A DNA stretch of 49,651 nucleotides, from positions 1 to 49,651 of the forward strand of contig CAIJIT010000324.1 in the NCBI GenBank assembly GCA_903820745.1. Direction: 5' to 3'. The stretch's first letter is position 1, and each line of letters opens with the position of its first letter. Positions 43,044 through 49,472 of the stretch are shown one piece after another. The stretch is from an uncultured Burkholderiales bacterium. Lineage in GTDB: Bacteria; Pseudomonadota; Gammaproteobacteria; Burkholderiales; Burkholderiaceae_C. The position numbers were made by a program, and so were the translations under genes. The notes under the pieces were generated by a model. The model did no database searches, had not been told where the DNA came from, and saw only the letters and a list, made by a program, of their open reading frames with translations.

Positions 43044-45773
43044 TCAAAGCAGCGGCGCCAGCGCCCGCTCGGCGGCTTCCTGGTTTAGGCCGGTGCGCTG
43101 GGCCCAGTCGGCCACCTGGTCGGCGCCGATGCGGCCAACGTTGAAGTAAGCCGCGTCCGGGTGCGTCAGGTAAAACCCCGAGACGCTGGCGGCCGGCGAC
43201 ATTGCCATCGACTCGGTCAAACCCATGCCGATTTCCTCGGGCGCCAGCAGCTTGAACATGTCGCGCTTGACCAGATGGTCGGGGCAGGCCGGATAGCCGG
43301 GTGCCGGACGGATGCCTTGATATTGTTCGTCGATCAGCGCTTCGACAGCCAGACTCTCGGTCGCTGCATAGCCCCAGAATTCAGTGCGCACACGCTGATG
43401 CAGGCGTTCGGCAAAGGCTTCGGCCAGGCGGTCGGCCAAGGCCTTGAACATGATCGCCGAATAGTCGTCATGCTCGGCCAGAAATTGCGCTTCCTTCTTC
43501 TCGACGCCCAAACCTGCGGTGACGGCGAACAGGCCGATGTAGTCGGTACCCGCCGCGCGCGGCGCAATGAAATCGGCCAGGCAGCGGTTTGGCCGCTGGA
43601 CGCCGTCGACGACCGGCCGCAAGGACTGCATGCGCAGCCCATGCCAGGTCATCAGGACCTGGCTGCGCGACTCATCGCTGTAGATCTCGATGTCGTCGTC
43701 GTTGACCTGTGCCGCCGGGTACAGACCGAAGACACCACTGGCCGTCAGCCAACGCCCGGCTATCAGGCGCTGCAACATCGCCTGGGCATCGGCAAAGACG
43801 CGCTGCGCTTCGCTGCCGACCACCGGGTCATTCAGGATTGCTGGAAAGGACCCGGCCAGATCCCAGGTCTGGAAGAACGGGCCCCAGTCGATGCAGGTGG
43901 CCAGCTCGGCCAGGTCGTAGTTACGGATCACGCGCCGGCCGATGAACTGCGGCGCCGGTGGTTGATAGCTTGACCAGTCGAGCGCGGCCTTGTTGGCGCG
44001 CGCCTGCGCCAGACTGACCATCGGCGTCTGCTTCTTGTTGGCGTGTAACTGGCGCAGATTGGCGTAGTCGGTCTGCAGCTCATGGATGAATTTGTCAGCG
44101 CGCTCGTCTGACAGCAAATCGCTGCAGACTGCCACGCTGCGCGATGCATCGGGCACATAGACCACCGGGCCACTGTAATTGGGCGCGATCTTCACCGCGG
44201 TATGGACACGGCTGCAGGTGGCGCCGCCGATCAGCAGCGGCGTCTGGCGTGCGCGGAAATAGTCATCGCGCTGCATCTCGGCAGCCACATGCTGCATTTC
44301 TTCAAGGCTCGGCGTGATCAGCCCGGACAGGCCGATGATGTCGGCGCCCTCGTCTTTGGCGCGCGCCAAAATGTCCTGGCAGGCCACCATCACGCCCATA
44401 TTGACGACTTCGAAGTTATTGCATTGCAGCACCACGGTGACGATGTTCTTGCCGATGTCGTGCACATCGCCCTTGACGGTGGCGATGACGATCTTGCCCT
44501 TCGGTTTGGCCTCGCCGCCGGCAGCGATCAGCGCAGTTTTTTCGGCTTCGATATAGGGAAGCAAATGGGCCACCGCCTGTTTCATTACGCGCGCGCTTTT
44601 CACCACTTGCGGCAGGAACATCTTGCCGGCGCCGAAGCGGTCGCCGACGACGTTCATGCCGGCCATCAGCGGGCCTTCGATCACATGCAGCGGCCGCCCG
44701 CCCGTGGCCTGTATGGCCTGCCAGGCTTCTTCGGTGTCGGCGGTGATGAATTCGGTGATGCCATGTACCAGCGAATGGCTGAGGCGCTGGTCGACATCGC
44801 CGGTGCGCCAGGCCAGCCGTGCCGTGTCGTCGATCGCCATGCCCTTGGCGCGTTCGGCCACTTCGATCAGGCGTTCGCCCGAATCGGCGCGGCGGTTCAG
44901 CACCACATCTTCGACGCGCTCGCGCAATTCGGCGTCGAGGTCGTCATAGACGCCAACCATGCCGGCATTGACGATGCCCATGTCCATGCCGGCCTTGATC
45001 GCGTGGTACAGGAACACCGTGTGGATCGCCTCGCGTACCGGGTCGTTGCCGCGGAAACTAAAAGACACGTTCGAGACTCCGCCCGAAACCTTGGCGCCCG
45101 GCAGGTTCTGCTTGATCCAGCGTGTTGCCTCGATGAAGTCGACCGCGTAGTTGTTGTGTTCCTCGATGCCGGTGGCGATGGCGAAAATGTTCGGGTCGAA
45201 GATGATGTCTTCGGCCGGAAAGTCGACCTCGTCGACCAGGATGCGGTAGGCGCGCGCACAGATTTCAATCTTGCGCTCATAGGTGTCAGCCTGGCCTTTT
45301 TCATCGAAAGCCATCACCACCGCAGCGGCGCCATAGCGGCGCACCAGCTTGGCCTGGCGTTTGAACTCGGCTTCGCCTTCCTTCATCGAGATCGAGTTGA
45401 CGATGCCCTTGCCCTGGATGCATTTCAGGCCGGCTTCGATGACGCTCCATTTCGAGCTGTCGACCATGATCGGAACGCGCGCGATCTCGGGCTCGCCGGC
45501 GAGCAGATTCAGGAAGCGCACCATCGCCGCCTGGCTGTCGAGCATCGCCTCGTCCATATTGATGTCGATGACCTGGGCGCCGTTTTCGACCTGCTGGCGC
45601 GCAACGGCCAGGGCCGCTTCGAACTGTCCGTTCAGGATCAGCCGGGCAAACGCCTTGGAACCAGTGACATTGGTGCGCTCGCCGATATTGACGAACAGAC
45701 TGCCGGCACCGATTTGCACCGGTTCGAGTCCGGACAACTTCATGGGCTGCACGGCAGCGAAGATTTCAGACAT
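43044..45773 (-). CDS. metH: Methionine synthase, folate/cobalamin/activation-domain part
   Basis: The second half of B12-dependent methionine synthase as a separate 909-residue protein. In order: the pterin-binding domain (residues ~25-300, with [20 protein letters not shown] and MVDSSKW), the helical cap (~340-440), the B12-binding domain with [11 protein letters not shown] (lower His ligand) and an [14 protein letters not shown] segment (~460-590), and the AdoMet-dependent reactivation domain with [12 protein letters not shown] (~600-909). It should work with the homocysteine-domain protein encoded upstream. The ATG at 45773 is chosen over a longer frame reading into the leader. The 158-base leader contains an SAH riboswitch. 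Confidence 0.94.
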
Positions 45774-45795
45774 GGAGGCCTCAACGAATGAATCG

Positions 45796-45820
45796 AGGGC
45801 CGCAAACTCACCGCGGCCCT
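45796..45820 (-). promoter_or_regulatory. Hairpin between the SAH riboswitch and metH part 2
   Basis: AGGGCCGC and GCGGCCCT (45813-45820 and 45796-45803) form a perfect eight-base stem with a nine-base loop. No T tract follows, so it is not an intrinsic terminator. The loop plus one stem base (45807-45813) is complementary over seven bases to 45830-45836, the 3' part of the riboswitch, which suggests a switching element. Confidence 0.5.
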
Positions 45821-45830
45821 GCAAGGGATC

Positions 45831-45922
45831 GGTGAGCGCTGTTGTCTGCGAGGGCAAGCCCAAGCCGGTTCGAGCCTGGCAGTCCGGCCGCTTGGCCCTC
45901 CTGTCGCAACGCTCCTCGAACG
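45831..45922 (-). ncRNA. S-adenosylhomocysteine (SAH) riboswitch upstream of metH part 2
   Basis: The minus strand carries the conserved blocks of the SAH riboswitch: CGAGGAGCGTTGCGAC, then GCCAGGCTCGAA, then AACAGCGCTCACC. The structure fits. P1 pairs GTTCGAG (45915-45921) with CTCGAAC (45868-45874). P2 is a GGCC/GGCC hairpin (45886-45897). The pseudoknot pairs GAGCGTTG (45907-45914) with CAGCGCTC (45834-45841) with one G-U pair. It starts about ten bases after the stop of metH part 1 and ends 57 bases before the ATG of metH part 2. SAH riboswitches are known to raise expression of SAH-recycling genes (ahcY, metH, metF) when SAH accumulates. Confidence 0.87.
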
Positions 45923-45931
45923 GATGTGATT

Positions 45932-46996
45932 TTAAACCGAAGCAGTCTCGCCAGATTCAAGCAAGCTGCTGAGGAACTTCGCCCCGCAAGGCCGTGGCTT
46001 GTAGGCCGAGACGCTTTTGGCGATGGCAGCGATATGTTCGGGCGTCGTGCCGCAGCAGCCGCCAGCGATATTGAGGAAGCCGCTGCGGGCGAATTCCTCC
46101 ATCAGCCGCCCGGTCACTGCGGGCGTTTCGTCGAAGCCGGTGTCGCTCATCGGATTGGGCAGACCGGCATTCGGGTAGCAACTGATCGCCGTCGCCCCGG
46201 CAGCATTGGCCAACTCCTCGATATAGGGCCGCATCAATGTCGCACCGAGCGCGCAGTTGAGTCCGATCGCCAGCGGTCTGGCATGGCGTACCGAATGCCA
46301 GAAAGCGGTCACCGTCTGGCCCGACAGGATGCGACCGGAGGCGTCGGTGACGGTGCCCGAGATGATTACTGGCACGCGCTCGCCGCTGTCTTCCATCAAC
46401 TCGTCGAGCGCAAAGATCGCTGCCTTGGCATTCAAGGTGTCGAAGATCGTCTCGACCAGAAACAGATCGACCCCGCCCTCGAGCAAGGCCTTGGCCTGGT
46501 CGTAATAGGCGGCGCGCAAGGTCTCGAAATCGACATTGCGTGCGCCGGCATCGTTGACATCGGGGCTGATGCTGGCGGTGCGCGGTGTGGGCCCCAAGGC
46601 ACCGGCGGCAAAACGCGGTTTGTCGGGAGTTGAAAATTTATCGCAGGCCGCGCGCGCAATCTTTGCCGCCGCCACATTCATCTCGTAGGCATAGGCCTCG
46701 AGACCGTAATCCTCCTGCGCCACCGAAGTCGCACCAAAGGTGTTGGTTTCGATGATGTCGGCGCCAGCGGCCAGGTATTTTTCGTGAATCTCCTGGATTA
46801 CCTCGGGCCTTGTGAATTGCAGCAATTCGTTGTTGCCCTTCAGGTCCTTCGGATGGTCGACAAAGCGGCTGCCCCGGTAGTCGGCTTCGACCAGCTTGTA
46901 GCGCTGGATCATCGTGCCCATCGCGCCGTCGAGAATGACGATGCGCTGCTGCAGTATGGCGGGCAGCAAGGCGCCGCGGGTGAATGGCTTTTCCAT
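45932..46996 (-). CDS. metH: Methionine synthase, homocysteine-binding part
   Basis: A 354-residue protein equal to the N-terminal homocysteine S-methyltransferase domain of MetH. The start [20 protein letters not shown] is typical. Zinc ligands are the Cys in IGLNCALGA and the pair in [10 protein letters not shown]. The [14 protein letters not shown] segment is MetH-like. It transfers the methyl group from methylcobalamin on the partner protein to homocysteine. The start ATG overlaps the stop of the ProQ-family gene by one base (TGATG), so the two are translationally coupled. The partner gene follows after an SAH riboswitch. Confidence 0.93.
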
Positions 46997-47826
46997 CAGA
47001 CCGTGCCCGCCGGTTTGCCGCGTTGATCTTGGCGCGGCCGGCCGCGGTTTTCACCGCGGCGGTCGGGTCTGCCGCCTGGGTCGGGTCTGCCACCTCGGTC
47101 GGGTCGCGCAGTTCGATCATGACCTGCCGGCGCTGGCCTTGGCTCGCGCTGCGGTGGCGGCTCGGCAGCTTCGCGCCGGGCGATTTCCAGCAAGCCCGGC
47201 AACTCCTCGGGCGTCACGCCTTTGAGGACGCAAAAATTCGCCAGTGTCAGGGTCGTGCGCTCGTGGTCGTAGAGCAGGCCGGCGCGGTTGCGGCGCTGGA
47301 TCTGTTCGAGCTGGACGCGCTCGCGCTGCTCAGTTTGTTCTTGTGCCGTCCGCTGCTGTTCAAGCGCCACGCGCTCTTGCTGCAGACCGCGCCGACGGGT
47401 CAACTCCTCAAGGGCTGCATCGCGATGTTCATCGCTCAGTTGGCCGGCCGGCTGACCGTCGAGGTCAGCGCGCTGGGTCGACCGGCTCAGGGCAATCAGA
47501 TAGCCGGTGCTGCCGGTATGGCGGCGCAAGAAGGCCGACAACTGCGCCTTGGTGAAGACGCCGGGTGCGCGCTCCTGGATGTCAGCCTGCACACGCAGTT
47601 TCAGCGGCTTGAAGCCATTGCCACCGAACAAGGCTGGAAACAGCGATTTCAGTTTTGCGGCCACAGCTGATGGCGTCATTTCGTTGGCTACAGCAGCCTT
47701 GGCTGGCAGGTCCGGCGCGGCCGCCTCGAGGGCGAGTTCCGGCGCTGCTTCGACCTGGAGTTCAGGCGCGGTCTCGGCCACAGTCAGAGGTTCTGCGAGC
47801 GGCGGCGCGTTGGGGATGTCGTTCAT
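46996..47826 (-). CDS. ProQ/FinO-family RNA-binding protein
   Basis: A 276-residue protein with a ProQ/FinO domain in the middle (about residues 50-165: [20 protein letters not shown], then [20 protein letters not shown]). A Gln/Arg/Glu-rich helical stretch follows ([20 protein letters not shown], about 155-175), and a very basic Gly/Arg/Pro/Asp tail with repeats ([13 protein letters not shown]) ends the protein. Such proteins bind structured RNAs and act as sRNA chaperones or 3'-end protectors. The N-terminus is acidic and Ala/Pro-rich. It overlaps metH part 1. The start at 47826 gives a natural N-terminus ([12 protein letters not shown]). Confidence 0.83.
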
Positions 47827-47884
47827 TGGCAAGGGCTGGGAAATGCGGAAGGAAAACGCTATTGTCGTCTGGCCGGGCCCCAAG

Positions 47885-48553
47885 CTATCCGCCGAAGACT
47901 TTTTTCAGGATCGCGCTGCCGGTGCCGATCGGATCCTGGCGGATCTTGCGTTCTTCCAGTCCGATCATCAGGTAGAGCCCGTCAAGCGCTCTCGTGGTGA
48001 CATATTGTTCGATGCTCGCGTCTTCATGCTTGAGCAGACCCAGGCTGGAAGCCTTGGCCGCCAGCGTCTTGTACTTTTCGGCCAGCGCCACTTTCTGCGT
48101 GGCTTCGGTGACGATCGGCAGGAACTGCAACGCCAGCGGCGCGCGAGTCTTGGCCGCAAAGTACTGCGTCGCTGCATCCTCGCCACCGCGCAAGATGCGC
48201 ATCGCATCAGAAAAACTGATCGACTTGATGGCTGACAATAGCAGCGGTTTGGCCGCTGCGACAGCGAGTTCGGCGGCGCGGTTCATCGCCAGCAGCAACT
48301 CGTCGAGCAGCTTGCCCTGGCCAGCGGTCCGCAGCAGGCGGGCGACATCCTTCAAATGACCGGGCAAATCGATTCGCACCGCCGGGTTGCCGACGAAGCC
48401 ATCGGGTTTGGCCAGCAGATCGACGGCTGCCAACGCGCCGCGCTCGAGGGCGGCACGCATGCCCGAACCGGCATCGCCCTCGCTGATCGGGGCTGCCCGG
48501 GCGGCGCTGGCAAAGAGGGCCAGATTGGCCAGGATGATGGTTCTACGTTGCAT
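47885..48553 (-). CDS. DUF4197 domain-containing exported protein
   Basis: A 222-residue protein of a family with unknown function (DUF4197). It has a short N-terminal signal-like segment (MQRRTIILANLALFASAARA). The body is helical, with FVGNPAVRIDLPGHLKDVAR, SISFSDAMRILRGGEDAATQ, and a C-terminal TTRALDGLYLMIGLEERKIR that are typical of the family. It is probably periplasmic or a lipoprotein-like protein, although no lipobox Cys is seen. It lies ten bases after the fumarylacetoacetase-family gene and 58 bases before the ProQ-family gene. Confidence 0.82.
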   Translation of the reverse strand: MQRRTIILANLALFASAARAAPISEGDAGSGMRAALERGALAAVDLLAKPDGFVGNPAVRIDLPGHLKDVARLLRTAGQGKLLDELLLAMNRAAELAVAAAKPLLLSAIKSISFSDAMRILRGGEDAATQYFAAKTRAPLALQFLPIVTEATQKVALAEKYKTLAAKASSLGLLKHEDASIEQYVTTRALDGLYLMIGLEERKIRQDPIGTGSAILKKVFGG

Positions 48554-48563
48554 CGATTTCTCC

Positions 48564-49472
48564 CTATTGCGCTGATTCAAGCAAGGGCAGCAGGTCCTGG
48601 TCGATCGTGCCGAACAGCTTGCCGCCATCGCGCCCTTTCATTTCAATCCGGATACTGTCGCCGAATTTCATCCAAGGTGTCACCGCATTGACATCGATCC
48701 GGGTTTCGAGCGCGCGTTGATCGGCGATGCTGCAATAGCCATGGACTGGATCGCTGACCGCGCCGCTGCTGATGATGGTGCCAGCGCGAAAGCCGCGCGT
48801 CCTGGCGAGTTGCGCGATCAATTGGCCGAAGTGGAAAGTCATCCCGGACCCGGTTTCACAAAGGCCGACCTGCTTGCCGTTGAATGTCGCCTTCAGGTTC
48901 AGCTCGACCCGGCCGCCCTGCCAGGCCGCGCCAAGCTCGTCGGGGGTGACCGCAACCGGGCTGAAGGCCGTGGCCAGTTCAGCTTGTTGCAGGTTCTGCA
49001 AACGCCAGTCATTGGCCAGCATCAAGAGCCGCACCGTATCGAGCGCCTGTGCCGGGTTGACTCCGACCGTGACATCGCCGCTGATGATGGCGATGCCGGC
49101 CTCGAAGGAGACGCCCATCGCTTCCGAAGCGCAGCGGGCCGGGTCGGTGGCCCCGAGAAAATCATCGCTGCCGCGGCGCTCGAGCCTGGGCTCGAGCAGT
49201 CCGCGCTCGTAGGCTGCGCCGGTGACGAATTGATAGGCTCGCGGCAGCGGTGCCATGCACCGGGACGGTTCAAAATTGAAGGCATGGCGCAAGCGCCCCT
49301 GGTTCAATTTGAGGTACAGATCTTCCAGCTGTGGCGACAGAAAACCCCAATCATCAAGCAGTTGCTGCAAGCGGGTGGCGTGAGCTGTGGCGTAATGCGC
49401 CTGGCTGAGGTCGCGTGAAACGACGAGCAGTTGCCCGTCGCGCGAACCGTCTTGGTAGGTGGCAAGTTTCAT
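48564..49472 (-). CDS. Fumarylacetoacetate hydrolase family protein
   Basis: A 302-residue member of the fumarylacetoacetase family, which splits or decarboxylates 2-keto or dioxo acids using a divalent metal. The C-terminal catalytic domain is recognisable by MTFHFGQLIAQLARTRGFRA and GTIISSGAVSD. SFEAGIAIISGDVTVGVNPA provides likely metal-binding residues. The family also includes homogentisate, homoprotocatechuate and acylpyruvate hydrolases, so the substrate is open. The start at 49472 is only 43 bases from the stop of the tnpB copy at the right edge, so its native upstream region has been replaced by the mobile element. Confidence 0.85.
   Translation of the reverse strand: MKLATYQDGSRDGQLLVVSRDLSQAHYATAHATRLQQLLDDWGFLSPQLEDLYLKLNQGRLRHAFNFEPSRCMAPLPRAYQFVTGAAYERGLLEPRLERRGSDDFLGATDPARCASEAMGVSFEAGIAIISGDVTVGVNPAQALDTVRLLMLANDWRLQNLQQAELATAFSPVAVTPDELGAAWQGGRVELNLKATFNGKQVGLCETGSGMTFHFGQLIAQLARTRGFRAGTIISSGAVSDPVHGYCSIADQRALETRIDVNAVTPWMKFGDSIRIEMKGRDGGKLFGTIDQDLLPLLESAQ

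Follow-up and report, generated by a model that had tools for sequence, protein, structure and literature searches.

SAH riboswitches bind SAH and reject SAM, and expression is switched on by SAH; ahcY is the classical target of the class. In its main text, Leyn et al. 2014 (PMC4239095) gives ahcY and metF as core targets of SAH riboswitches and also places them on MetH in Comamonadaceae, and therefore both the class and the target that concern us here were already known. The SAH riboswitch of ahcY in B. cenocepacia (BCAL0145) is described, in the sections of PMC4603805 drawn on here, as a 119-nt RNA, a length inferred from 5'-end data and terminators.

We have analysed a stretch of 49,651 nucleotides from an uncultured Burkholderiales bacterium, called the window below, in which an SAH riboswitch stands between the two genes of a split metH. 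Our reading, which we regard as probable, is that the riboswitch belongs to a promoter-riboswitch-metH2 cassette and acts as a translational ON switch, that metH1 lies outside the switch, and that the two came to be adjacent by gene loss.

The aptamer between the metH genes

The genes and the elements that separate them are as follows.

46996 to 47883, minus strand: ProQ/FINO-family gene, overlapping the metH1 start as TGATG
45932 to 46996, minus strand: metH1, homocysteine S-methyltransferase domain, 354 aa (PF02574, S-methyl_trans, E 6.5e-95); relative in 143 of 150 family genomes
45929 to 45934, minus strand: TAAAAT, the predicted -10 hexamer for metH2, whose opening TAA doubles as the metH1 stop codon
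45827 to 45923, minus strand: SAH riboswitch aptamer (RF01057), 48.5 bits with Rfam and 49.7 bits with the family model R1
43044 to 45773, minus strand: metH2, folate-binding, B12-binding and activation domains, 909 aa (Pfam); relative in 144 of 150 family genomes

Together with the domain of metH1, the Pfam domains of metH2 (Pterin_bind, B12-binding_2, B12-binding and Met_synt_B12) make up every domain of one B12-dependent methionine synthase MetH. A first-pass annotation had drawn an SAH riboswitch on the minus strand at 45831-45922, between the two halves of metH, and had it control the folate/B12/activation half only. When the full window was scanned with Infernal against Rfam 15 at the gathering cut-offs, RF01057 was the sole match (45827-45923, minus strand, 48.5 bits against a cut-off of 37, E 5.2e-06); it covers model positions 1-78 completely and encloses the interval drawn earlier. 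The genes identified by their Pfam domains as metH1 and metH2 lie upstream and downstream of it, and the riboswitch is placed to act on metH2 alone, as had been proposed. Its 5' end falls 8 nt past the metH1 stop and its 3' end 53 nt ahead of the metH2 ATG. The gene that follows, metH2, is one of the SAM-cycle genes (ahcY, metF or metH) expected downstream of a member of RF01057.

The P1 and P2 helices, the conserved core and the pseudoknot strand are all present, the last recognised by sequence as the models leave the pseudoknot pairing unscored. Six standard pairs and a single C-C mismatch make up P1, and a 12-base insertion precedes the pseudoknot strand. A family covariance model, R1, was built from 26 family members with ahcY and metH2 copies pooled; P1 and P2 covary in these sequences (72 double-change cells, against 20.7 in shuffles). 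The match of the window to R1 (E 2.9e-11, 49.7 bits) is not independent, since the window is among the 26 training sequences. The only other RF01057 match of the genome precedes ahcY and scores 62.6 bits against the 48.5 of the window. Judged by its sequence, the window element is a genuine riboswitch, of a class already known but unusually placed, and it presumably binds SAH as the class does.

A metH2 cassette with a probable promoter of its own

Of 150 genomes from this family, 146 have at least one SAH riboswitch. The DNA ahead of metH2 was then compared in 140 relatives and the window, 141 regions in all, with G036, G104 and G147 omitted because their metH2 match starts late. Model R1 found a riboswitch in 122 of the 141 (E 3.8e-05 or better), always in the sense orientation, and the list at this threshold holds no match for the other 19. 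Seven weaker R1 matches (E 0.05 to 1) were dropped, five of them in metH2 upstream regions and two in the window; two of the seven share their locus with a strong match that lies, by position, in the same region on the strand of the gene.

In 121 of the 122 loci the riboswitch lies 28-226 nt ahead of the first aligned metH2 codon. The distance to the end of metH1 is at most 135 nt in 11 of the 122 and 580 to 1,246 nt in 24; for 86 loci the upstream DNA retrieved, at most 1.5 kb and less where a contig ends, showed no metH1. Because the riboswitch precedes metH2 in 121 loci and metH1 is close in only 11 of the 122, the element is one that travels with metH2 wherever that gene stands.

Some loci are arranged differently. 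In G125 the riboswitch precedes metH1 of an adjacent metH1-metH2 pair, and both halves may be controlled; in another locus (L196) it precedes metH1, with metH2 about 1.8 kb further on and no second match there. Among 80 named metH1 loci, three have a riboswitch in the fetched DNA, a count that gives no rate since metH2 is out of view in many: it stands before metH2 in Rhodoferax sp. OV413 and a Polaromonas, and before metH1 in Comamonadaceae bacterium OS-4. In more distantly related named genomes, Noviherbaspirillum, Alcaligenes and Methylotenera among them, the metH parts lie within about 30 nt of each other in tblastn matches, as they would in a fused metH.

A -10-type hexamer begins 15-22 nt ahead of the aptamer core in 120 of 120 scorable loci, compared with 14 of 10,715 control windows in the same loci (TAAAAT 84, TAGAAT 21, TACAAT 10, TAAACT 4 and TACACT 1). 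The count omits G107, where the contig ends, and G125, with its riboswitch before metH1. The hexamer set was picked after inspection of the aligned sequences, albeit the contrast with the controls is far too large for that to matter. No -35 consensus emerged upstream of the family riboswitches, and a consensus scan for sigma-70 promoters gave no match at the riboswitch of the window. Since the riboswitch accompanies metH2 and the -10 box is conserved, metH2 most likely forms a separate transcription unit, whose RNA most likely begins at the foot of P1, set by the box at 45929-45934. Some read-through from metH1 into metH2 may occur as well.

The best surviving alternative, which we nevertheless consider unlikely, is that proQ, metH1 and metH2 lie on one mRNA in which the riboswitch tunes translation of the last gene and so sets the subunit ratio. 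It would account for the overlap of proQ with metH1, for a metH1 that ends 8 nt ahead of the aptamer and for a terminator scan that gives none between the genes, and a riboswitch would also function within a longer mRNA; yet it does not explain why all 120 scorable loci have a -10 box at the base of the aptamer, nor the opposed gene that separates the halves in the 12 close relatives with both in view, nor why proQ stands directly ahead of metH1 in only one of 20 fetched relatives. The peculiar operon-internal control point of the first-pass annotation is not borne out either, as the riboswitch accompanies metH2 in 121 of the 141 regions and brings the conserved box with it. That annotation had also coupled metH1 to the ProQ-family gene. 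The two genes do overlap in the window, but proQ is found near metH1 in five of the 20 relatives and directly ahead of it in a single one, of the same genus, so that on this comparison the link is a local one. Ahead of metH1, at 46996-49472, the window carries ProQ-family, DUF4197 and FAA-hydrolase genes, an order repeated in a same-genus locus.

How the metH2 cassette came to lie directly behind metH1 is suggested by the close relatives. In fourteen fetched loci metH1 shares 83 percent identity or more with that of the window, and in 13 of them a gene of about 397 codons on the opposite strand lies downstream of metH1. It stands between metH1 and metH2 in the 12 with both halves in view, while in G116 the contig ends; the exception among the 14 is G030, where the halves are about 31 kb apart. 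Both same-genus relatives of the set have the reversed gene. A family search with two copies gave an HD-domain match below the cut-off for one and none for the other. Neither the window nor its genome (a draft of 357 contigs) gave a match to the reversed gene. Nine residues follow the FLSSL motif of metH1 in the window, compared with three to five in the 14 relatives.

Because the reversed gene is present in 13 of the 14 relatives and has no match in this genome, the adjacency of metH1 and riboswitch looks like a secondary deletion of that gene, and the metH1 stop probably lies inside the metH2 -10 box because the gene was lost here. An assembly error at the junction could give the same picture. 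In a more distant genome, G092, whose metH1 is 75 percent identical, the metH1 stop likewise starts the metH2 -10 hexamer.

A rival strand for the pseudoknot

The aptamer pseudoknot has CGCTCACC as its 3' strand, and the leader between it and metH2 contains the following elements.

45830 to 45836, minus strand: CTCACCG, part of the pseudoknot 3' strand and the following bases; alternative pairing with 45807-45813
45807 to 45813, minus strand: CGGTGAG, anti-pseudoknot strand, identified by the conservation of GGTGAG and a covarying flanking pair
45797 to 45819, minus strand: GC-rich type II hairpin, arms GGGCCGC / GCGGCCC around a loop that contains GGTGAG; within the clade of the window the arms are mostly conserved
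45779 to 45782, minus strand: Shine-Dalgarno GAGG of metH2, identified by sequence; GAGG or AAGG stands just ahead of the ATG in most aligned close relatives

GGTGAG, the complement of CTCACC, occurs downstream in 95 of 112 scorable leaders, where 0.8 would be expected from shuffling; 12 of the remaining leaders have a near match and five have none. Left out of this count are G125 and nine loci in which the pseudoknot strand did not fit the pattern. The first pair beside the six-pair helix is Watson-Crick in 76 of the 95 leaders (shuffled mean 44.5, maximum 56, in shuffles that ignore kinship), and its variety, with T-A in 57, G-C in 11, C-G in seven and one other, amounts to covariation. For the second neighbouring pair the count, 55 of 95, comes close to the top of the shuffled range (mean 45.5, maximum 57); neither the third nor the fourth pair gave a signal against shuffles in the 95 leaders. 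Since CTCACC has a rival partner in GGTGAG with one covarying neighbour pair, the riboswitch is likely a translational ON switch.

The leaders fall into two types. In type I, 65 of the 95, GGTGAG belongs to the ribosome site directly ahead of the start codon. In type II, 30 of the 95 with the window included, GGTGAG mostly lies further upstream and a distinct GAGG-like element serves as ribosome site, although two that are counted here (G057 and G089) could belong to type I, with just 10 nt between GGTGAG and a start. In the clade of the window GGTGAG is held within a hairpin, GGCCGC-GGTGAG-GCGGCC. A short reading frame at 45740-45811 begins at a GTG of the hairpin and overlaps the metH2 start out of frame, which may be chance.

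To assess the two types, leaders were folded with the pseudoknot strand blocked. The accessibility of the ribosome site went up in 63 of 67 type I leaders (two of these with near matches), and as modelled the type I platform is a direct ON switch. Type II showed no general effect, with four of 36 leaders up and six of 36 down; the window went from 0.20 to 0.34. The test omits G056 (no ATG by the rule) and G057, G089 and G124 (type ambiguous), and G062 and G129 were reassigned by hand to type II both here and in the covariation count. Start codons were set by simple rules, which leave those of G111 and G100 doubtful in this test and in the arm test below.

Full-leader folding of 108 leaders, with five loci left out beforehand and nine skipped, gave a mean accessibility change of 0.086, compared with 0.050 with shuffled linkers (p 0.012); accessibility rose by more than 0.2 in 25 leaders and fell by more than 0.2 in eight, and no clear change was seen for the window. 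This signal is weak, and the platform argument therefore rests on conservation and covariation. Complementarity between hairpin arm and ribosome site was assessed by duplex energies on 21 leaders hand-picked for a GGTGA hairpin. It exceeded that of shuffles overall (paired p 0.0009) and was individually significant in four of the 21, the window among the four; mean energies were not used, since G111 has no arm by the rule of the script and its energy is meaningless.

We put forward, as a tentative view, that there are two platforms: a direct one, where the ribosome site is what the pseudoknot strand can pair with instead, and a relay one in the clade of the window, where that partner has moved into the loop of a GC-rich hairpin and a new ribosome site can alternatively be masked by the far arm of the hairpin. 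The same view takes in a metH1 stop and metH2 -10 box that share bases in the window and in G092.

In the scheme that we propose, the -10 box at 45929-45934 would direct transcription from the base of P1. With SAH absent, CTCACCG would pair with CGGTGAG and the metH2 ribosome site would be masked; with SAH bound, the strand would be locked in the pseudoknot, the ribosome site freed and MetH2 raised. More MetH2 would mean that homocysteine released from SAH is converted to methionine, while metH1 would stay outside the control of the switch. In the type II relay the far hairpin arm would mask the ribosome site while CTCACC holds GGTGAG, and would return to its own hairpin upon binding of SAH. 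For the leader of the window, this final release step is a hypothesis, and the evidence for it is at most suggestive.

A transcriptional switch, with the GC-rich hairpin at 45797-45819 as a terminator or part of one, seems very unlikely to us. The hairpin is stable and largely conserved in the clade, but no T-run follows it and it is absent from the terminator scan. Moreover, its pair probability is 0.66 in the free and 0.95 in the bound-like state, so that as a terminator it would let SAH turn the gene off. Least credible is a decaying riboswitch, with metH2 fed by read-through after the deletion and an aptamer that no longer matters: the window does score below the ahcY copy and has a P1 mismatch (the 12-base insertion says little, because that of the ahcY copy is longer), but core, -10 box, GGTGAG and hairpin are all intact.

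In this family, SAH appears to govern only one of the two parts of a split enzyme, which makes it well suited to the question of how cells balance two subunits; the halves may be expressed unequally. The conserved rival strand GGTGAG suggests a simple way in which SAH could switch metH2, one that lends itself to testing, and the family supplies many natural variants. The interest of the locus lies in this one-sided wiring, in the rival strand and in the shared stop codon and -10 box, and it exemplifies the appearance of design that an arrangement can gain through the loss of a gene.

Comparison with described systems

In the open-licence literature, including the parts consulted of PMC4239095, PMC4603805, PMC10907184 and PMC2864571, the placement in a split metH, the -10 box and the platform types were not found. 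The nearest described case, RF01057 on metH of Comamonadaceae (PMC4239095), resembles the window in RNA family, in its methionine synthase target and in broad bacterial group, and differs in that the parts consulted do not describe a split-half placement, a -10 box or two platforms. The split metH of Cupriavidus, Paraburkholderia, Trinickia and Caballeronia has the same two adjacent halves, and the loci fetched gave no riboswitch match.

The SAH riboswitch of ahcY, in the same genome and as BCAL0145, has the same aptamer with the -10 box at the same place, and another target gene. The hexamer (TATAAT also allowed) was found at that place in 24 of 25 ahcY riboswitches tested, a test that drew on the copy of this genome and 25 of 30 loci (L003-L032), including one that turned out to be metH2. 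In four ahcY leaders (L008, L013, L019 and L031) the bases after the pseudoknot strand (CCACGC or similar) recur inverted before a T-run, in the manner of an intrinsic terminator, and ahcY may be switched differently from metH2. In the ahcY leaders inspected, any GGTGAG stands a long way from the start of the gene, a further difference from metH2.
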